The notes under the pieces were generated by a model. That model was not told where the DNA came from, did not search any database, and was given only the letters and a program-made list of their open reading frames with translations. Below, one piece after another: positions 1-9,031 of a stretch of 64,000 nt of DNA (position 1 is the first letter of the stretch; every line of letters begins with the position of its first letter). Origin of the DNA: Centipeda artemidis DSM 19719 (lineage in GTDB: Bacteria > Bacillota > Negativicutes > Selenomonadales > Selenomonadaceae); assembly GCF_000426665.1 (NCBI RefSeq), contig NZ_AUFU01000007.1, forward strand, positions 1-64,000. The letters run 5' to 3'. The position numbers and the translations under genes are program-made.

Positions 1-224
1 CTTGCCGTATATTGTGGAGACCGCCCGCGAGCAGCTTGGCGTTCGGGTGTCCCCCGCTTAAGCTCATAGTGGATCGCCGTGTGCGAGCATCCAACCCGTG
101 CGGCTATGGCGCGAAGGGAGAATCCTTCGCGGTGAAGTGCCTGTATTTGCCCCCTTTCGTCAAGGGTAAAGTGCTTTCCCGATTTACGAACAGCTTCCAT
201 TGTGGTAGAATGGGGGTAATCCAT
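1..224 (-). CDS. IS30-family transposase, N-terminal 74 residues (partial)
   Basis: This is the N-terminus of an IS30-type DDE transposase, which cuts and joins the ends of its own element. The reading frame opens with ATG at 224, preceded by AAAGGAG. Residues about 20-60 read as the family's helix-turn-helix (FTLDERGQIQALHREGFSLR, then AIAARVGCSHTAIHYELKRG), the part that binds the inverted repeats. The DDE catalytic core would lie beyond position 1 and is not visible, so activity cannot be judged. The 5' leader can pair with the start-codon region (see 218-289). A relative deleted after codon 13 lies at 7560-7723. Confidence 0.85.
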   Translation of the reverse strand, partial: MDYPHSTTMEAVRKSGKHFTLDERGQIQALHREGFSLRAIAARVGCSHTAIHYELKRGTPERQAARGRSPQYTA

Positions 225-289
225 AGTGATTGCTCCTTTGCTGATGTTTTGTAGCAGAACCATTATAGCACGGGATGTCACTATGGATT
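218..289 (-). promoter_or_regulatory. IS30 leader: extended -10 promoter plus start-codon-sequestering inverted repeat
   Basis: On the minus strand TGCTATAAT (262-270) is an extended -10 box. A perfect 12-bp inverted repeat, AATCCATAGTGA (278-289) and TCACTATGGATT (218-229), lies on either side of it. The second arm contains the transposase ATG. Only transcripts begun outside the element would carry both arms and fold over the start codon. Protection of this kind from outside transcription is known for IS10 and IS50. Confidence 0.6.
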
Positions 290-334
290 TTGTTTTTGTT
301 TAGCTGTTCAACTTCATTTTACAACGAACCGATT

Positions 335-1636
335 TCATTTTATCCTTTCATTTCGTTCTGTCATAGCTGCTGCGAGTGCTGCGCCGAGGGCGGAGCCGGT
401 GTTTTCGAGGATGATCTTGACGTTGACCGCCTCGTCCAAGAGCAGCGTGTCGAGTGCACCACGCAGATGATGCGCGACAAGCGGGACTTTCTCATAGACG
501 GAGCCGTCGACGGCGACGAACTGGTCCTCAAGCGCGTTTTCACCCATGCGGTGCTGAATGATGGCGACGTAGGTCGCCGCAACGATGCGTGCAGAGCGGA
601 CGATGACTGCAGTCGCGAGCTCCTGCAGAAGGGCACGCTCGGAGGCGGTGAAGGTCATGCCCGTTTTTGCCTCGATGACGGCGCCCGCCGAATGGCGGTC
701 GAGATAGGCATCTGCGATGATCTCGGAGAGTTCAATGCTCGAAAAGGGGTAAACCCCGTCCGTACCGAGGAGGTCGGCAAGCGCCGCACCGTAGAGCGAC
801 CCGAGGTAGCGTCCCGACACCATCTTCTCAAGACGCTGTGCGCCGGGCTGCTCGGACTCCCTGTCCAGAATCTCATCGTATTTGGAGAAGGGCAGTTTTC
901 CGAAGCCGCCCGACTCCATGTTGATGACGGTAGGCGGCTCGCTGCCGTCCGCGAACTCCTCGTAGTAGCAGGTGTTCTGCCCCGTGGCGTAGATGGAGCC
1001 GATGTAGGTGTGCTCGTGCTTGTATGCCGCCGCGAGCAGGACTGCGACCGTGTCATTGATGACTGCGACGGGTTCGACGTTCCTCATGCCGCGCCGTGCG
1101 AGTGCCTCTTTGAGGAGGTCGTTGACGACCTTACCCTCGACCCCCTGCGTGGCGAATTCCTTCGTCCATACAATCAGCTTCGCATTGTAGAGGTCGGTCT
1201 GCTGCGAGGGGAAGGAGAAGGTGTGTCCGAGCAGGTATTTCGTTGTGCGATTTCCCTCGATCGCCTCATCGATGATCTCAGCGAGGAAGTCAAACATTTC
1301 TTCCGCCGTTGCATCCGCGCTGACGTAGTCATAGACACCGGGGAGGGTGAGCGGCTTTGCGACCTTGCTCAGTACCTCATATTCGCCGCCGCCCTTGAGG
1401 AGGATGCGAAGTGCTCGTACATTTGTGCCGCCGAAGTCGAGCGCGAGGAAGGAGCCGTGCTCCTTTCCGCTTGGAAGTCCTGCGTAGGAGCGGAGCATAC
1501 GAAGCGTTGCACCCTTTTCACCCGAAAGCCCCGCGCACATATTGGCGCGGAAATCATCGGCGATCCTGCGGAGCGTATCGTCGTCTATGGTGAAGGCAGC
1601 CTTTGTCTCGTCAAATCGTTCACGATCAAAACCCAT
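335..1636 (-). CDS. hexokinase, eukaryotic-type family
   Basis: Phosphorylates glucose or related hexoses with ATP in the cytoplasm. It belongs to the eukaryotic-type hexokinase family (small plus large domain), not the bacterial ROK or Glk groups. Visible motifs are the phosphate-1 loop LALDFGGTNVRA (about 65-76), LGHTFSFPSQQ (136-146), VINDT with the likely catalytic Asp (about 195), ATGQN (217-221) and a C-terminal ENTGSALGAALAAA adenosine-site segment. At 433 residues it matches single-domain hexokinases. I chose ATG 1636 because GGGAGGAG precedes it by 5 nt; an upstream in-frame TTG (1651) overlaps that ribosome site. It is the last gene of the alpha-glucoside operon, where it would capture the free glucose released by the GH13 enzyme. 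The IS30 end begins 4 bp after its stop. Confidence 0.9.
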   Translation of the reverse strand: MGFDRERFDETKAAFTIDDDTLRRIADDFRANMCAGLSGEKGATLRMLRSYAGLPSGKEHGSFLALDFGGTNVRALRILLKGGGEYEVLSKVAKPLTLPGVYDYVSADATAEEMFDFLAEIIDEAIEGNRTTKYLLGHTFSFPSQQTDLYNAKLIVWTKEFATQGVEGKVVNDLLKEALARRGMRNVEPVAVINDTVAVLLAAAYKHEHTYIGSIYATGQNTCYYEEFADGSEPPTVINMESGGFGKLPFSKYDEILDRESEQPGAQRLEKMVSGRYLGSLYGAALADLLGTDGVYPFSSIELSEIIADAYLDRHSAGAVIEAKTGMTFTASERALLQELATAVIVRSARIVAATYVAIIQHRMGENALEDQFVAVDGSVYEKVPLVAHHLRGALDTLLLDEAVNVKIILENTGSALGAALAAAMTERNERIK

Positions 1637-1663
1637 GGTAACTCCTCCCAAGAAAAGTTGTGG

Positions 1664-1742
1664 GGACGCCCCTATCGGTTCGCCCTAGTCTCCCCCGTTC
1701 GAAACGGGGGAGGGGGACCGCGTAAGCGGTGGAAGGGGCGCC
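1664..1742. repeat. GC-rich intergenic hairpin repeat, copy 1
   Basis: About 79 bp between the HAD gene and hexokinase. It is bounded by near-inverted ends (GACGCCCCTAT at 1665 and AAGGGGCGCC at 1733-1742) and contains the hairpin CTCCCCCGTTCGAAACGGGG and a GACCGCGTAAGCGGT stem. The same modules occur at 4216-4357, so this is a repeat family placed between genes of the same operon. Confidence 0.65.
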
Positions 1743-1758
1743 ACTTATCAGTGATAGC

Positions 1759-2532
1759 TTAGCAAAAGTGATCGAGCATCGCGCCGACGCTCGGGAACAC
1801 CTGCTTCGCCTGTGCTTGTATCTCGGGACGTGCGGTCGTAAGCGAGTAGCCTCCCCATGCCTTCAGCATCGGCAGGTCGTTCGTCTCGTCGCCGATGGCG
1901 AACACCTCCACGCCATCCCATCCCATGACGGAGAGGAGTGTGCGGATGCCCTGATCCTTGCTGATGCCGGCGGGCGTGATGTCAAGGCTGCACGCATTTG
2001 GGAACGCATGAATCTTGTCACTGAGCTTTGCGTTCAGCACCGCCGCACATTCTTCCGAGAGAGCAGGTTCATGAAAGCCGAGCGAGAACTGCTGAATCCC
2101 CGTCAGTCCTCCGATCTCGCTCTCCTCGATGTAGACGATGGGGAAATCCCAGTCCTTTGCCTCGCGCTCGATCCACGAACCCTCGGAGTGGTGGCAGAGA
2201 TAGGTCACATCTGCTGCAGAGAAGGCGAAGTGGAAGGATTTCTGTGCGCTCGGCTCCGACGCAATCGCCGTGAGCGCGCGAGGATCAATCTCCGCCTGAA
2301 ATCGGACGGCTGCATCCGCACCCCGTATGATGCCGCCGTTGTTGCAGACGGTGTAGTCGAACTCCACGCCGTATTCCTCAAGCTGCGGGACAAGCATCCC
2401 ATAGTCGCGTCCCGAGATCACACCGAACTTGTGCCCTGCGGCACGCCAGCGGGCAATGCCCTCCTTCGTCTCCTCGTCGATTTTGCCGCCCCGGAGGAGC
2501 GTGCCGTCGTAATCGCTTGCCGCTACCTTCAT
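1759..2532 (-). CDS. HAD-superfamily hydrolase, Cof/IIB type (sugar phosphatase-like)
   Basis: A cytoplasmic phosphatase of the HAD superfamily, Cof-like subfamily IIB. These enzymes dephosphorylate sugar phosphates and similar small molecules; the exact substrate is not predictable. Motif I is DYDGT with nucleophile Asp7 and Asp9, motif II is VISGRD around residues 38-43, and motif IV is GDETNDLPML near residue 220. The length of 257 residues and the cap inserted between motifs II and III fit the family. The start overlaps the stop of the GH13 gene as ATGA, which indicates translational coupling. In this operon it may remove excess sugar phosphate (inference). Confidence 0.85.
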   Translation of the reverse strand: MKVAASDYDGTLLRGGKIDEETKEGIARWRAAGHKFGVISGRDYGMLVPQLEEYGVEFDYTVCNNGGIIRGADAAVRFQAEIDPRALTAIASEPSAQKSFHFAFSAADVTYLCHHSEGSWIEREAKDWDFPIVYIEESEIGGLTGIQQFSLGFHEPALSEECAAVLNAKLSDKIHAFPNACSLDITPAGISKDQGIRTLLSVMGWDGVEVFAIGDETNDLPMLKAWGGYSLTTARPEIQAQAKQVFPSVGAMLDHFC

Positions 2533-4193
2533 TTTACTTCCTCCTCATAGACAACCGCCTCGAGCGGACGGAGCGCAGCCTTTGGCGCATCCGCATAGCT
2601 GCCGATGAGCCGCACGCCCCTCAAAAATCCTGCGGGAAGCTGTGCCTCCTCTGCGGAAAAGTTGACTGCCGTAACGATGCGGCGATTGCCTTCCGTACGA
2701 GAGAATGCGTAGATCTGCTCGTTTTCGGCAAGCAGTTCCTCATAGACCCCGTTGAGCAGTACGGGATTCGTCTTGCGCAGACGGATGATCTGCTTGTAGT
2801 AATTGAGCACGGAGTCCGCATCCGCTTCCTCTGCCGCCGCATTGATTGTGTGATAATTCTCGTTTGCGGGCAGCCACGGCGTACCTGTGGTGAATCCTTC
2901 GTTCGCCGTATCGTTCCACTGCATCGGCGTACGCGCATTGTCACGGCTGTTGAAGTGGACAAAGGACAGTGCCTCTGCGGGCGAGAATCCTTCCTTCAGT
3001 GCAAGCTCGTATTGCCCGTGGGAGGAGATGTCATCGTATGCGTCGATCGTATCCCATTTGACGTTTGTCATGCCGAGCTCTTCGCCCTCGTAGATGAAGG
3101 GCGTGCCGCGCAGAGTCATGAGAATGGTCGCGAGTGCCTTTGCCGCAAGGCGTGCATCGCCGCCCTTCGGGAAGAAGTAGTTCACCGAGCGTGCGCGGTC
3201 ATGGTTCTCGAAGTAGATCGGATACCAGCCCTCCTTGGCAACACCCTCCTGACTCGCGGAGAGTGCGCCCTTGAGCTTTGTGAGCTTCCACGGAACCATC
3301 TTCGACCAGCATTCGCCCTCCTCGTAGGGGACGAGGACGTGCGCAAACTCGAACAGCATCGAGAATACGCCGTTCTCGCCGACCCAGTCGGGCAGCTCCG
3401 CCACGCTGACACCGTTCGCCTCGCCGACGGTGAAGATGTCGTGCCCGTCAAAGACCTCCCTGCGGAACTCGTGGAGGAAATCGAGGATGCCGGGCGTGTT
3501 CGCCGTCATTGTGTGGACGCTCACCATGCCGTCCGCCGCGTCGGGCGTGCCGTCCTCGAAGACGGCGGGTTTCTTGATGTAGGTGATCGCGTCAATGCGG
3601 AAGCCGCCGACGCCCTTGTCGAGCCAGAAGTTCGCCGCTGCAAAGAGGGCTGCACGTACCTCTGGATTCTCCCAGTTGAGATCTGGCTGCGCCTCGGCAA
3701 AGGTATGGAGGTAGTATTGATCGCGTTCCGCGCAGTACGTCCACGCGGAGCCGCCGAAGATGCCGCGCCAGTTCGTCGGCGCACTGCCGTCGGGTTTCGC
3801 GTCGCGCCAGATGTACCAGCCGCTCTTTGCGTTATTGCGGCTGGACTTCGACTCGATAAACCACGGATGCTGATCGGAGCTGTGGTTGTAGACGAGATCC
3901 ATGACGATGCGCATATCGCGCTTCTTTGCTTCGGCGATCAGCTCCTCCATGTCGGCGAGCGTGCCGAACTGGGGATTGATGCCCGTGTAGTCGCTGATGT
4001 CGTAGCCGTTGTCGACCATGGGCGAGGGATAGACGGGGGTGAGCCAGAGCGCACCCGCGCCGAGATCCTTCAGATAGTCGAGCTTTTCCGTGATGCCGCG
4101 CAGATCGCCTGTGCCGCTTCCCGTCGTGTCATTGAAGCTCTTCGGGTAGATCTGGTAAACGGCGGTGTTCTGCCACCATTTCGTTGCTTTCAT
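2529..4193 (-). CDS. GH13 alpha-glucosidase (GH13_31/oligo-1,6-glucosidase group)
   Basis: A cytoplasmic alpha-glucosidase that cleaves short alpha-glucosides or their 6-phosphates. The (beta/alpha)8 barrel motifs are DLVYNHS (99-105), GFRIDAI with nucleophile Asp201, VGEA with acid/base Glu258, and ENHDRAR with Asp332. The residue after the nucleophile is Ala, as in alpha-1,4-active members; strict alpha-1,6 enzymes usually have Val here. The family also includes trehalose-6-phosphate hydrolase, so the substrate is open. ATG 4193 with AAAGGAAC upstream is the start; an in-frame extension to 4298 reads into a repeat and is rejected. It lies between the PTS gene and the HAD gene. Because the PTS delivers phosphorylated disaccharide, glucose plus glucose 6-phosphate are the likely products (inference). 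Confidence 0.88.
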   Translation of the reverse strand: MKATKWWQNTAVYQIYPKSFNDTTGSGTGDLRGITEKLDYLKDLGAGALWLTPVYPSPMVDNGYDISDYTGINPQFGTLADMEELIAEAKKRDMRIVMDLVYNHSSDQHPWFIESKSSRNNAKSGWYIWRDAKPDGSAPTNWRGIFGGSAWTYCAERDQYYLHTFAEAQPDLNWENPEVRAALFAAANFWLDKGVGGFRIDAITYIKKPAVFEDGTPDAADGMVSVHTMTANTPGILDFLHEFRREVFDGHDIFTVGEANGVSVAELPDWVGENGVFSMLFEFAHVLVPYEEGECWSKMVPWKLTKLKGALSASQEGVAKEGWYPIYFENHDRARSVNYFFPKGGDARLAAKALATILMTLRGTPFIYEGEELGMTNVKWDTIDAYDDISSHGQYELALKEGFSPAEALSFVHFNSRDNARTPMQWNDTANEGFTTGTPWLPANENYHTINAAAEEADADSVLNYYKQIIRLRKTNPVLLNGVYEELLAENEQIYAFSRTEGNRRIVTAVNFSAEEAQLPAGFLRGVRLIGSYADAPKAALRPLEAVVYEEEVK

Positions 4194-4215
4194 GCTTGTT
4201 CCTTTCGTTATATGA

Positions 4216-4357
4216 GCTTCCCCCGTAGCAACGGGGGAAGTGGCGAGCATGCGAGCCGATAGGGGCGCCGGTGACGATACTCGGACCCTGTCGTTCAAAG
4301 CGCCCCTTCCACCACGCTGCGCGTGGTCCCCCTCCCCCGTTTCGACGGGGGAGGCTT
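4216..4357. repeat. GC-rich intergenic hairpin repeat, copy 2 (compound)
   Basis: Between the PTS and GH13 genes. It contains the hairpin CTTCCCCCGTAGCAACGGGG (4218 onwards), a GCGAGCCGATAGGGGCGCC block, about 29 bp of unrelated sequence, then GCGCCCCTTCCACC, a CCACGCTGCGCGTGG stem and the hairpin CTCCCCCGTTTCGACGGGGG. The modules match copy 1 at 1664-1742, but here two partial elements abut. It could fold in the mRNA and lower distal gene expression (inference). There is no T-run, so it is not a standard terminator. Confidence 0.6.
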
Positions 4358-4364
4358 TTCTTCA

Positions 4365-6476
4365 TCAGAACGTCAGAACCGTCGTCTCGCCGGCTTTTGC
4401 ATCCATGCCCGTCATCTTCTTCATGAGCGGGTACTCGCCGGAGTTCGTGACTGCCATGATGACGGTGTCCTGATAGCCCGCCGCATGAATCACATCGCGG
4501 TCGAACTTCACGAGCGGCGCACCCGCCTTAACGCGATCGCCCATCTTGACGAGCAGTTCAAAGCCCTCGCCCTCGAGTTTCACTGTGTCCACACCGATGT
4601 GGATGAGGAGTTCCGCGCCGTTGTCCATACGGAGACCGACCGCATGGCGGCTGTCCTCCATGACCATCGTGACCTCAGCATCCGCAGGAGCGGCCACAAT
4701 GCCCTCCGTCGGCTCGACCGCAACGCCGTCGCCCATCATCTTCTGCGAGAACATCTCGTCCTTGACCTCGCTCATATCGATGATATGACCCGTTGTAACA
4801 GCCGTAATGGCAAAGGATTTCTCCGTGCCGACGGCGACCTCGTCCACATCGGAGGCAGGGGCGGTCATGAGTGCCTCGAAGCGCTCGCGGATCTGCGGGA
4901 CGGAAAGTCCCACGATGACTTGGAATGCGTGACCGTTGCGGACAAGCCCGTGTGCGCCCGCCTCGGTGAATGCGCCCGTCGGAGCGACGAGTTCGGGATC
5001 GTTGACCGTGACGCGCAGACGCGTTGCGCAGTTCGTCACGTCCTTGATGTTTGCCGCGCCGCCGAGACCGTCGAGGAAGGCGCGCGCCTTGACATCGCGC
5101 TCATCGAGCTTCATGCCGGGAGCGGCTGCCGCAGCACCTGCTGTACCCGCCTGTTTTGCCTTGTAGTCCGCCTTCGTGAAGAGCTTGTCCTCTACGCCGT
5201 CGTCCGTGCGGCCGGGGGTCTTGTAGTCCTTGAGCTGAATGACGAAGCGGAACACGAAGAAGTAGATCGCGGTGAAGCACAGACCAACGGCGATCTGCAT
5301 GAGATACGTCGCATAGTGATACGAGAAGAGCGGAATCCAGTTCTGCACGAAGCAGTCGATCAGACCGCCGCCGAAGTTGCCCGAGAGCCCGATTGCATAG
5401 AGCGTTGCGGAAAGCGTTGCCGAGAGGACGGCGTGCAGGAGATAGAGAAGCGGTGCGACGAAGAGGAAGGTGAACTCGATTGGCTCTGTGATGCCGCAGA
5501 GCACCGCCGTGATCGTTGCGGGGATGAGGAGCGCCGCTGTCTTCTTGCGCTTCTCAGGCTTCGCACACATATAGATCGCGAGTGCCGCGCCCGGCAGACC
5601 GAACACCTTGCCGCTGCCGTGGAGGGCAAAGCCGCCCTCGGGGAAGAGCTCACGGAGCGACTGCCCGCTGACCATGAAGTCATTGATGTGGCTAAGCCAA
5701 TATGCCTGAATGCCGCCGTCTACGACCGCAGGGCCGAAGATGAACGGGAGATAGATGAAGTGGTGGAGACCTGCGGGAAGGAGCATTTTCTCCGAGAACG
5801 TGTATGCCCAGACACCGAGGATGCCGCTGGTCTTGAGGAAGAACTGGAACTGCTCGATGGCGTGCTGAACGGCAGGCCAGACGATGCAGAAGAGAAGTGC
5901 CATCGGGATCATGACGACGAAGCCGATCGCCACGACGAACGCAGGTCCTTTGAAGATGCCGAGCCAATCGGGGATGTTCGTGTCATAGAAACGATTGTGC
6001 AGGAATGCCGTGCAGCAGGCGATGAAGATCGCACCGAGCATGCCCATGTCGAGCGTCTTAACGTTCGCGATCATTGCAAGGCCTGTGCCGGGACCCGCCG
6101 GCTGGCTGTAGTCCACACCGAACGCGCTGCCGTGGAGCGTGAGGAATGCGGAGATGAAGTAGTTGAAGAGCATATAGATGACGAAGGACTCCATCGCGCA
6201 GCGCGCCGGTTCCTTCTTGGCAAAGCCGATCGGCACGGCGATGGCAAAGAGAATGGGCATCTGGGCGAACACCGTCCATGCGCCCTGTTCGACGACGAAC
6301 CAGAAATCATACCAGAGTGTGCCAGGTGCGGCGAGACTGCCGAGCAGCCCCTCGTTCTTGCAGACAATGGACACTGCCACCGTCAAACCGAAGAATGCAA
6401 ACAGAATGACGGGCGTATACATCGCACCGCCGAACCGCTGCATATTTTGCATGATGACATCCTTACTGAGTGCCAT
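4365..6476 (-). CDS. PTS system alpha-glucoside-type EIICBA permease
   Basis: An inner-membrane phosphotransferase permease that imports a sugar, probably an alpha-glucoside such as maltose, and phosphorylates it. Domain order is EIIC (about 1-430, many membrane segments, with the GITEPIEF sugar-site motif at 328-335), EIIB (about 460-540, phospho-acceptor Cys483 in TNCATRLR) and EIIA (about 575-703, His626 in LLIHIGVDT). All three modules sit on one 703-residue chain, so only EI and HPr are needed from elsewhere. The EIIC resembles the alpha-glucoside branch of the glucose/glucoside superfamily. The start ATG 6476 has GGAGGAA upstream. It heads the operon PTS-GH13-HAD-hexokinase and follows a terminated regulator gene. 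Confidence 0.9.
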   Translation of the reverse strand: MALSKDVIMQNMQRFGGAMYTPVILFAFFGLTVAVSIVCKNEGLLGSLAAPGTLWYDFWFVVEQGAWTVFAQMPILFAIAVPIGFAKKEPARCAMESFVIYMLFNYFISAFLTLHGSAFGVDYSQPAGPGTGLAMIANVKTLDMGMLGAIFIACCTAFLHNRFYDTNIPDWLGIFKGPAFVVAIGFVVMIPMALLFCIVWPAVQHAIEQFQFFLKTSGILGVWAYTFSEKMLLPAGLHHFIYLPFIFGPAVVDGGIQAYWLSHINDFMVSGQSLRELFPEGGFALHGSGKVFGLPGAALAIYMCAKPEKRKKTAALLIPATITAVLCGITEPIEFTFLFVAPLLYLLHAVLSATLSATLYAIGLSGNFGGGLIDCFVQNWIPLFSYHYATYLMQIAVGLCFTAIYFFVFRFVIQLKDYKTPGRTDDGVEDKLFTKADYKAKQAGTAGAAAAAPGMKLDERDVKARAFLDGLGGAANIKDVTNCATRLRVTVNDPELVAPTGAFTEAGAHGLVRNGHAFQVIVGLSVPQIRERFEALMTAPASDVDEVAVGTEKSFAITAVTTGHIIDMSEVKDEMFSQKMMGDGVAVEPTEGIVAAPADAEVTMVMEDSRHAVGLRMDNGAELLIHIGVDTVKLEGEGFELLVKMGDRVKAGAPLVKFDRDVIHAAGYQDTVIMAVTNSGEYPLMKKMTGMDAKAGETTVLTF

Positions 6477-6552
6477 GTGCGTTCCTCCTTAAATCCCAAC
6501 CTTGCAACTGTGTGTGAAACAAACCTGAAATCTGATGACTCAACGATAGCGC

Positions 6553-6583
6553 AAAAAAGCCGCGAATGCAATAGTTTCGCGGC
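6553..6583 (-). terminator. rho-independent terminator after the RpiR-type regulator
   Basis: On the minus strand GCCGCGAA pairs with TTCGCGGC (8 bp, 9-nt loop) and is followed by TTTTTT. It separates the regulator gene from the PTS operon, so the operon should have its own promoter in 6477-6552, where I could not pick a clear one. Confidence 0.85.
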
Positions 6584-6686
6584 TTTCGGGCAGAATGTAC
6601 GGAGACTGTATCACGGTACATTGGATGAAATTTGTTACAGCAGCGGATGATTCGTATAGCCCTCAAAAACGCTGGAGGGGACATTT

Positions 6687-7457
6687 CTAATCCATCTCCT
6701 GCTCCTGTACATACAGGCGGTAGTGCACATACCAGATCTCGAGCAGGAGGAAGTAGGCAAGCATGGATTTGAACTGGAGGCGCTGTTTGTTCTCGGCGAG
6801 TCCAATCTCTGCGGGCATGACGTAGAGATTCTCTGTCGATTGGGCGGCGAGCGTGTTGTGCCGCATCTCTGTAATTGAGAGGATGGGGACGCCCTTGAGA
6901 TGGAGCTGATCTGCGAACTCTACGACGCGCTCGGACTCGCCCGAGAGCGAGATGAAGATGAAGAGGTCGTCGGGCCCCGCCGTCTGGTAGACCGAGTAGA
7001 ACTCCTCGCGACCCGCGATCTCGTAGATGAGGATGTTGTCATAGACGAATAGCCGCTTCATCTCCTGCATGACGTTCGTCTGCACATAGCCCGAGGCGTA
7101 GGCAAAGATGCGGTGCGCCTCGCGGATGAGACGGCTCGCGCTCGTGTAGTCACGCCGCATGAGTGTACGCCATGTCTGATCGTAGAAGCTGCCGAGCGTG
7201 GCTGTCACATCGCGGCGGGGCGACACCATCTCCGCTGCCTCCATACGCATGACCGCCTTCAGCTCGCCGAAGCCGTCGAAGCCGAGCTTCTGCGCGAAGC
7301 GCACGACGGACGCACTTGAGACGGCGCACGCGCGCGCGAGTTCGTGGATGGATATACGGCTCGCCGCCGTACGGTTGCTGTCGATCCAGCGCCAGATACA
7401 CTTGTCTGCATCGCTGAGATCCCTAAGATGTGCGTTGATTCGTTCCGTGAGCCGCAT
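6687..7457 (-). CDS. MurR/RpiR-family transcriptional regulator
   Basis: A cytoplasmic DNA-binding regulator that senses a phosphosugar. Residues 1-77 form the RpiR helix-turn-helix domain (AASRISIHELARACAVSSAS, then VVRFAQKLGFDGFGELK). Residues about 110-230 form a SIS sugar-phosphate-binding domain (SGYVQ, ISLSGESERVVEFADQL). The length of 256 is typical. GAAGGTGA precedes the ATG. It lies directly upstream of the alpha-glucoside PTS operon on the same strand and is the obvious candidate regulator, comparable to GlvR/MalR-type regulators. A weak extended -10 box (TGCTATAAT, 7497-7505) lies about 40 bp upstream. The mini-IS30 at 7560 sits just behind this promoter. Confidence 0.88.
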   Translation of the reverse strand: MRLTERINAHLRDLSDADKCIWRWIDSNRTAASRISIHELARACAVSSASVVRFAQKLGFDGFGELKAVMRMEAAEMVSPRRDVTATLGSFYDQTWRTLMRRDYTSASRLIREAHRIFAYASGYVQTNVMQEMKRLFVYDNILIYEIAGREEFYSVYQTAGPDDLFIFISLSGESERVVEFADQLHLKGVPILSITEMRHNTLAAQSTENLYVMPAEIGLAENKQRLQFKSMLAYFLLLEIWYVHYRLYVQEQEMD

Positions 7458-7496
7458 CTCATTCTCACCTTCTTTTGCTGGATCCTATTCCGCGTT

Positions 7497-7505
7497 ATTA
7501 TAGCA
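7497..7505 (-). promoter_or_regulatory. extended -10 promoter of the RpiR-type regulator
   Basis: The minus strand reads TGCTATAAT about 40 bp before the regulator ATG, with no good -35 hexamer. The same nonamer occurs in the IS30 leader. The position suits a promoter, but the call rests on the -10 alone. Confidence 0.4.
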
Positions 7506-7559
7506 TAACTTGTAGAATATATTTGTAAAACTTCAAGAAATCAACACTTGATAGTATTC

Positions 7560-7723
7560 GGTTCGTTGTAAAATGAAGTTGAACAGCTAAACAAAAACAA
7601 AATCCATAGTGACATCCCGTGCTATAATGGTTCCGCTACAAAACATCAGCAAAGGAGCAATCACTATGGATTACGCCTATTCTACTACAATGGAAGCTGT
7701 TCAACTTCATTTTACAACGAACC
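7560..7723 (+). mobile_element. 164-bp mini-IS30 (MITE-like internal deletion derivative)
   Basis: Both ends are perfect 29-bp inverted repeats (7560-7588 and 7695-7723), identical to the IS30 end at 302-330. The first 143 bp match the leader and first 13 transposase codons of that IS with 4 mismatches by my count. The sequence then jumps into the right-end repeat at AGCTGTTC, an 8-bp microhomology shared by codons 11-13 and the repeat. It keeps both transposase binding sites but no transposase, so it could only move if helped in trans. Confidence 0.9.
7601..7672 (+). promoter_or_regulatory. IS30 leader copy: extended -10, Shine-Dalgarno and start-codon inverted repeat
   Basis: AATCCATAGTGA (7601-7612) and TCACTATGGATT (7661-7672) are perfect 12-bp inverted repeats around TGCTATAAT (7620-7628) and AGGAG (7653-7657). 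The start codon 7666-7668 lies in the second arm. The structure is identical to the leader in the larger IS copy. Confidence 0.55.
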
Positions 7724-7779
7724 GTCAATTTTTTTATCTCGCATCTACCGCCGTTTGGCAAAGTTTTGCGCAGATGTAA
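7666..7779 (+). CDS. chimeric small ORF reading out of the mini-IS30 (37 aa)
   Basis: The transposase start and ribosome site are intact. The frame runs through the first 12 transposase codons and the right inverted repeat, then exits into flanking DNA and stops at TAA 7777-7779. The product would begin MDYAYSTTMEAVQLHFTTNR and has no recognisable domain. It is probably an accidental product of the deletion, or the remnant of a transposase. It could be translated because the leader elements survive, but the leader repeat may suppress that. Function is unknown and a biological role is doubtful. Confidence 0.25.
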   Translation: MDYAYSTTMEAVQLHFTTNRQFFYLASTAVWQSFAQM

Positions 7780-7786
7780 GAATCCC

Positions 7787-7816
7787 TTGCAAAGGGCGTA
7801 CGAGATTCGATAGAAT
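7787..7816 (+). promoter_or_regulatory. promoter of mtnA
   Basis: TTGCAA (7787-7792), an 18-bp spacer and TAGAAT (7811-7816) lie about 43 bp before the mtnA start and outside the mini-IS30. No SAM-type riboswitch was seen in the short leader. Confidence 0.6.
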
Positions 7817-7858
7817 AAGGTTAGAACAAACGTCTATCATAGGAAATGAGGCAGGATC

Positions 7859-8935
7859 GTGGCGGAAAATATTCTTGACATGGAAACCATCGCCCTCGAC
7901 GATGCGGCGCGCGCGCTCGTCATCATCGACCAGACAAAACTTCCCGGCAGGGCGGAGTACCTGCATCTTAAGACACAGCGCGAGATTTGGGACGCGATCA
8001 AGGAGCTGAAGGTGCGCGGTGCCCCCGCCATCGGCGACGCCGCTGCAATCGGGCTCTACCTCGCCGCGTGTGAAATCGATACGGACGACCGCACGGTCTT
8101 TGCGCGCCGCCTGCACGACGCAGCGATCTATCTGAGTTCATCTCGCCCGACTGCGGTCAACCTCTCATGGGCGCTCACGCGCATGGAGCGCGTCGTGGCG
8201 GAACACGGCGCGGCATCCGTCCCTGAGCTGCGCATCCTCCTGCGTGACGAGGCACGCGCCATCGCAGAGGAGGACGCAGATATCTGCCGCCGCATTGGGG
8301 AACATGCTCTGCCGCTCGTCCTCCCCGGCGACGGTCTCCTCACACACTGCAACGCGGGGCAGCTTGCCACGGCAAAGTACGGCACCGCCACCGCCGTCAT
8401 GTATCTCGGTCACGCAAAGGGATATAACTTCAAAATCTACACCGACGAGACGCGTCCGCTGCTCCAAGGCGCGCGGCTCACCGCGTACGAACTCAGCGCC
8501 GCAGGCATGGATGTCACACTGCTCTGCGACAACATGGCATCCGCACTCATGGCGAGCGGAAAAATCCAAGCGGTCTTTGTTGGGTGCGACCGCGTCGCGG
8601 CGAACGGAGACACGGCGAACAAGATCGGCACGTCGGGCGTCGCCATCCTCGCCAAGCATTACAACATCCCGTTCTATGTCTGCGCGCCGAGTTCGACCAT
8701 TGATCTGTCGACGTCGACGGGCGCGAACATCGAGATCGAACAGCGCCCGCCCGAAGAGGTCACGGAGATGTGGTACAGCAGCCGTATGGCGCCGAAAGGC
8801 ATTAACGTCTACAATCCCGCCTTCGACGTCACCGACCACAGCCTCATCACCGCATTCGTCACAGAGCACGGCGTTCTGCGCGCACCGTATGCGGAATCGC
8901 TGCGGACAGTACACCGAAACAGCCCCACTTATTAG
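7859..8935 (+). CDS. mtnA: S-methyl-5-thioribose-1-phosphate isomerase
   Basis: Converts methylthioribose 1-phosphate to methylthioribulose 1-phosphate in the methionine salvage pathway. It belongs to the eIF2B-related aldose-phosphate isomerase family. Diagnostic segments are RGAPAIG (53-59), HCNAGQLATAKYGTA with catalytic Cys164, GCDRVAANGDTANKIGT with Asp244, and APSSTIDLSTSTG. The length of 358 is normal. The start is GTG 7859 with GAGG upstream; an internal ATG eight codons in lacks a ribosome site. No other salvage gene (mtnK, mtnB, mtnN) is nearby. An 11-nt gap separates it from a 27-codon ORF with a strong ribosome site. Confidence 0.93.
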   Translation: MAENILDMETIALDDAARALVIIDQTKLPGRAEYLHLKTQREIWDAIKELKVRGAPAIGDAAAIGLYLAACEIDTDDRTVFARRLHDAAIYLSSSRPTAVNLSWALTRMERVVAEHGAASVPELRILLRDEARAIAEEDADICRRIGEHALPLVLPGDGLLTHCNAGQLATAKYGTATAVMYLGHAKGYNFKIYTDETRPLLQGARLTAYELSAAGMDVTLLCDNMASALMASGKIQAVFVGCDRVAANGDTANKIGTSGVAILAKHYNIPFYVCAPSSTIDLSTSTGANIEIEQRPPEEVTEMWYSSRMAPKGINVYNPAFDVTDHSLITAFVTEHGVLRAPYAESLRTVHRNSPTY

Positions 8936-8947
8936 GAGATAGGAGCA

Positions 8948-9031
8948 ATGCCAAATGCCGCCGATAAAATTTTACAGGAAATTGAAGCGGAGCGAATACG
9001 CCGTATGAACCTTACAATAGAAAATAAATAA
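8948..9031 (+). CDS. 27-residue small ORF behind mtnA, unknown
   Basis: Begins ATG 8948 after TTAGGAGATAGGAGCA, an excellent ribosome site, and ends TAA 9029-9031. The peptide MPNAADKILQEIEAERIRRM followed by NLTIENK is helical and highly charged, with no known domain. It may be a genuine small protein co-transcribed with mtnA, or the leftover N-terminus of a gene whose remainder was deleted. Its codons are more AT-rich towards the end than mtnA. I do not recognise it. Confidence 0.4.
   Translation: MPNAADKILQEIEAERIRRMNLTIENK

Follow-up and report, generated by a model that had tools for sequence, protein, structure and literature searches.

The inverted repeat over the transposase start of an IS30-family element is probably the closing stem of a predicted cis-antisense RNA

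It is proposed that the inverted repeat over the transposase start codon of an IS30-family element in Centipeda artemidis DSM 19719 closes a short cis-antisense RNA, as its stem, and that this RNA represses the transposase, a reading of the sequence that we regard as probable. An antisense promoter in transposase codons 5-8 would start an RNA at about position 218 of the plus strand, exactly at the edge of the repeat; this RNA would run past the start codon and the Shine-Dalgarno sequence and on through the sense promoter, would then close a 12-13-bp stem, and probably ends in a U-rich tract past position 289. Its loop would be complementary to the transposase mRNA leader, with an overlap of roughly the first 37 nt, so that the antisense RNA should bind the mRNA and block ribosomes in an RNA-OUT-like manner. 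Because the repeat is strand-symmetric, an RNA entering from outside could fold as well and hide the start codon, and one stretch of DNA may serve both the antisense RNA and a lock against read-through.

The transposase leader and its inverted repeat

The window, by which we mean the whole stretch of 64,000 nt that was analysed, begins inside the transposase gene. The features of the gene start and its leader are as follows.

3..224, minus strand: 5' portion of the IS30-family transposase gene, of which the window contains 74 codons, the gene continuing past position 1
218..229, minus strand: 3' (downstream) arm of the inverted repeat, over the transposase start codon, AATCCATAGTGA; on the plus strand, 5' end of the predicted antisense RNA
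233..238, minus strand: Shine-Dalgarno AAGGAG of the transposase, read directly from the sequence
262..270, minus strand: predicted sense promoter with extended -10 TGCTATAAT, from sequence and conservation, no clear -35, predicted start at about 255
278..289, minus strand: 5' (upstream) arm, upstream of the internal -10, TCACTATGGATT; on the plus strand, 3' side of the antisense stem
302..330, minus strand: left terminal inverted repeat of the element, from its match to the ends of a mini-copy

The element belongs to the IS30 family by its transposase: a near-identical full-length relative, 97% identical to the window protein over the N-terminal 74 aa, matches NF033563 (transpos_IS30) with 228 bits against a cut-off of 80. 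A repeat search of the window returned two arms of 12 nt each, 100% complementary and 48 nt apart, with the transposase ATG (224-222, minus strand) inside the 218-229 arm; the perfect 12-bp repeat of the original prediction, its arms placed around the predicted -10 and one of them over the start codon, is thus confirmed at 218-229/278-289. Since the extended -10 TGCTATAAT sits between the arms, an RNA started internally (predicted at about 255) would lack the 278-289 arm. None of 200 dinucleotide shuffles of the window leader pairs as well, and the 141-nt repeat region folds with z = -3.0.

Conservation and co-variation of the arms

Relatives were searched in the same host family, class and phylum, giving 99 distinct leaders, of which 98 have a usable -10, from elements whose N-terminal identity to the window protein runs from 97% down to less than 40%; a handful of leaders were excluded because their start codon was missing or doubtful or had an early stop after it. 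The sampling of species and clades is uneven, and the P values given here take related elements as independent unless clusters are stated. In 82 of the 98 leaders the pairing between the upstream segment and the start region beats all 200 dinucleotide shuffles (mean z -5.0); 25 large genes of the window, used as a control, have no such pairing (mean z +0.12). Native arm pairs are also better than arms swapped between elements, a result equalled in 0 of 100000 permutations over 20 groups and again in 0 of 100000 over 35 elements picked for diversity among the positives, where the native mean is 26.3 and the swapped mean 14.2.

The arms change together. Among 62 distinct arm pairs, 616 Watson-Crick cells were observed and 441 ± 8 expected, with all four pair types found at most of the variable arm positions, and in a 23-sequence alignment both sides have changed in seven of the 12 pairs (20 such cells, 5.5 expected). 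Arm sequences are unrelated between lineages, yet complementary within each pair, and the gap between the core arms ranges from 39 to 59 nt. The inverted repeat is therefore real, conserved across many IS30-family elements and under selection, and the compensatory changes across IS30 relatives that the original prediction had called for are present. That prediction had also named relatives with unpaired arms as evidence against it, and a few exist: E. coli IS30, IS1394, ISPsp8, ISCfr4 and one Acinetobacter element have neither the repeat nor an antisense -10. Arm pairing does not differ between intact and broken transposase copies, so recent decay is not visible in it. In three distant elements (L178, L181 and L100) the stem is longer, 15-17 positions, and entirely different in sequence.

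An antisense promoter within the first transposase codons

A promoter scan found TTTACG-17-TAGAAT, preceded by TG, at 183-211 of the plus strand, within and antisense to the transposase gene. The features predicted on this strand are the following.

183..188, plus strand: -35-like TTTACG of the predicted antisense promoter, 17-bp spacer
203..211, plus strand: predicted antisense promoter, extended -10 TGGTAGAAT (TGNTANNNT), in transposase codons 5-8, ending at +14
218..301, plus strand: predicted antisense RNA of inferred extent, whose 5' end is flush with the stem and whose loop is complementary to the Shine-Dalgarno and leader of the transposase
290..301, plus strand: U-rich tract TTGTTTTTGTTT immediately following the antisense stem, perhaps a terminator tail; on the sense strand, A-rich bases beside the arm

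With starts placed at a fixed distance from the -10, the predicted antisense start (about 218) coincides with the edge of the inverted repeat. The position of the antisense -10 is conserved: among 88 distinct leaders, the highest-scoring antisense extended -10 of the first 14 codons has its end at +14 in 76 cases and at +17 in another 10. Scored with a simple custom weight table, the best sites of these 88 leaders average 9.24 (maximum 10.4); synonymous recoding lowers the mean to 6.96, and windows elsewhere in these genes give 5.33. When the elements were clustered at 70% N-terminal identity, 38 of the 50 cluster representatives carried the same exact site, which occurs at 24 of 9004 (0.27%) background sites of the same phase. 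As many as 28 different peptides (HSTT, NFNT, NYIT, NHNT, DHTT, HLTI etc.) encode the antisense -10, their amino acids differing mainly at nucleotides that the promoter motif leaves free. Low scores for the motif were obtained for ISApl1 (7.3), IS1062 (6.0) and a dozen or so further leaders.

At their free positions, the sense and antisense -10 boxes of one element match each other more often than boxes of different elements do (117 vs 96 ± 5; P = 5e-5 over 48 clusters and 0.03 over 16), which perhaps comes from a host or lineage preference. A pseudoknot between the two boxes was considered and rejected; their flanks do not agree, and no RNA helix is claimed.

The predicted antisense RNA, its stem edge and its U-tract

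The predicted antisense RNA is 84 nt long and folds with -30.4 kcal/mol (z = -5.4; 0 of 200 shuffles as good); with both ends placed by prediction, it would overlap the gene from about -31 to +7. From element to element, the outer stem edge shifts together with the predicted antisense start. With the stem edge taken from the ungapped helix, the predicted antisense start and the stem edge correspond as 0 and +2 (ISLpl1), 6 and +5 (ISLsa1), 7 and +6 (median, n = 82), 10 and +9 (n = 10), 16 and +14 (ISApl1), and 23 and +21 (ISAs2 and an Alteromonas element), with a Spearman coefficient of 0.55 over 98 elements (P = 6e-9, related elements not being independent). In ISAs2 and the Alteromonas element the ungapped stem occupies +8 to +21 and leaves the ATG outside. 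Edges taken from an unrestricted duplex fold were two-peaked and uninformative.

A second feature is registered to the stem edge. The sense strand beside the upstream arm is 80-91% A over four bases, falling to about 35% by 13 bases, and on the antisense strand this A-run is a U-tract following the stem; alternatively, the A-run may serve the sense promoter as an UP element. Mismatches point the same way: at inner variable positions, sense A.C stands at 0.64 of expectation, G.U at 0.26 and the others at 0.18, and the smaller depletion of A.C than of G.U favours pairing on the antisense strand, where a sense A.C is a G.U, although the A/C-rich leader could account for part of the asymmetry and the sequences are not independent. 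The same comparison, tried as proof of a hairpin in the sense RNA, failed, with G.U depleted like other mismatches. With composition controlled for, folding is slightly better for the sense than for the antisense strand (z -5.97 vs -5.33; 63/92).

Taken as a whole, the repeat is better explained, as far as sequence can tell, as the stem of an antisense RNA than as protection from read-through. This preference is based on the outer edge, which follows the antisense promoter rather than the start codon, on the U-tract after the stem, and on sense mismatches tolerated as A.C rather than G.U. Against it count the slightly better sense fold, the weak antisense -10 of some elements, the stop codons ahead of the upstream arm, described below, which read-through protection predicts instead, and the 48-nt loop, which is large for an intrinsic terminator, none being found by a strict terminator scan of window positions 1-800.

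Read-through protection and other explanations

The original prediction held that the repeat blocks translation of read-through transcripts: RNA from a flanking gene would hide the ATG, and in the model considered here the Shine-Dalgarno sequence too, and internally started RNA would be translated. The layout is of the IS10/IS50 type, with arms on both sides of the predicted start and a start site predicted to be closed in the long RNA only. Opening positions -15 to +6 is calculated to cost 14.5 kcal/mol in the read-through RNA, 5.9 in the internal RNA and 6.8 when the upstream part is shuffled. Pairing with the upstream sequence is strongest at the AUG (0.96-0.97), reaches about 0.8 in a shoulder at -12/-11 over the Shine-Dalgarno region and falls to 0.25 by +7. 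Ahead of the upstream arm, every reading frame contains a stop codon in 68 of 75 distinct segments, where 28 would be expected. Read-through protection as the sole function nevertheless leaves the antisense -10, its coupling to the stem edge and the U-tract all unexplained, as it does the ungapped stems of ISAs2 and the Alteromonas element inside the coding region, and G.U pairs are depleted like true mismatches. As the only explanation it thus appears unlikely. The original claim survives insofar as the arms pair and co-vary and the start is predicted to be closed in the long RNA and open in the short one, but the antisense stem explains the repeat better; on the folding models, read-through protection may be a second function coexisting with the antisense RNA.

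The arms might also be half-sites at which a dimeric protein, the transposase or a host factor, represses the internal promoter; the palindrome does flank the promoter and half-sites would co-vary too, but a core-arm gap of 39 to 59 nt is out of helical phase, the arms are unrelated between lineages while each pair is complementary, and the edge of the arm goes with a predicted transcription start, all of which makes such a DNA site very improbable. Slightly less probable still is a mere terminator of antisense or outward transcription with no regulatory action on translation, which would fit the stem and, after it, the U-rich tract of the antisense strand but has a large loop, was not picked up by a strict terminator scan of window positions 1-800, and need not begin at a promoter edge or overlap the transposase start.

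The mini-copy and the element ends

A shortened copy of the element lies further along the window.

7560..7725, plus strand: mini-copy made of two left ends of the element, the second inverted, arms at 7601-7612 and 7661-7672

Over its first 137-143 bp it shares 97-99% identity with full copies of this genome, and its termini form 29 perfect pairs, the right end being the left end inverted; the real right end, which reads TGTTCAACTTGCTCTTGCAATTCACG in full-length relatives, is absent. The repeat was originally described as conserved in the mini-copy, and the same arms are indeed present there; since the mini-copy derives directly from the left end, they add no independent support. Its right end being an inverted left end, an origin by simple internal deletion was rejected. 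The inner junction falls on AGCTGTTC, a sequence present both in the transposase gene and in the inverted left end and thus suggestive of an origin by template switching. No 13-bp flanking duplication was seen around 7560-7725. The antisense -10 of the mini-copy lacks the G of the TG (TAGTAGAAT).

Target duplications in the IS30 family are typically 2-3 bp long and not strictly defining. Longer direct repeats of about 13-14 bp flank several close relatives (e.g. L057, L059, L060, L064 and L080); as family membership was decided by the transposase match, these repeats do not override it. In one copy, L052, the left end bears a terminal repeat of the right-end type (GTGAATTGCAAGAGCAAGTTGAACA), possibly by end conversion. 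The left terminal repeats of relatives, such as window 302-330, contain a -10-like TTGTA(A/T)AAT, and the right end carries a -35-like hexamer, TTGCAA. Joined ends could therefore create a junction promoter whose RNA would contain the upstream arm and hence be locked. The end junction of E. coli IS30 forms a strong promoter (PMC9333248).

Relation to known systems and significance

IS10 encodes RNA-OUT, a short antisense RNA with a single stem-loop, transcribed from pOUT, a promoter opposing the transposase promoter; RNA-OUT overlaps the first few tens of nucleotides of the transposase mRNA, including the ribosome site. By sequence, the system proposed here resembles it in an antisense promoter that opposes the transposase promoter near the 5' end and in a predicted short stem-loop RNA over the start of the transposase mRNA. 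It differs in belonging to another transposon family, in the location of the predicted promoter within the first nine codons and in having stem arms at the very ends of the RNA; an Rfam search of window 1-9000 and of ten relatives yielded nothing at gathering score. Antisense control of IS10 is cited in PMC8450116, PMC9330008 and PMC5006887, the first of which also cites inhibitory antisense RNAs for IS10, IS30 and IS200.

Protection of IS10 and IS50 from external promoters is credited to Davis, Simons and Kleckner 1985 in PMC2965389. The likeness lies in arms on either side of the internal start and in a long RNA predicted to fold over the start site; here, unlike in IS10/IS50, the arms coincide with a predicted antisense RNA gene, and the protection is itself a prediction. 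Within the IS30 family, the antisense RNA of E. coli IS30 is attributed to Arini et al. 1997 in PMC8450116, and its promoter is placed at bases 730-760, in mid-element, in PMC9330008. Both elements would thus share antisense control of the transposase, but the promoter of E. coli IS30 is far from the start, and that element lacks the repeat and the antisense -10. ISPpu9, as described in PMC8450116, has a leader hairpin that blocks the transposase ribosome site and an antisense RNA, Asr9, that overlaps the leader; the same pairing of a leader structure with an overlapping antisense RNA is predicted here, whereas in that other element Asr9 opens the leader and activates. The words hairpin, translation and start codon do not occur in a paper on ISApl1 transposition (PMC10916398), and no earlier description of a leader antisense RNA in the IS30 family was found in the literature covered, which took in few subscription papers; there, antisense RNA and the IS30 family came together in a paper on a fish-pathogen plasmid.

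IS30-family elements carry genes between many bacteria, and how most of them keep transposase low is, as far as we found, undescribed. Whether the proposal extends to much of the family, across several classes of Bacillota and in some Gammaproteobacteria, is in our judgement evenly balanced: such elements would encode an undescribed antisense RNA, with a promoter in the first nine codons that shapes the N-terminal peptide and a stem that doubles as a read-through lock. If so, a large part of the IS30 family would share one testable control, convergent with that of IS10. It would account for the fixed nucleotide pattern in the first codons despite varying amino acids, and would predict which members are under this control and which, such as E. 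coli IS30 and IS1394, are not.
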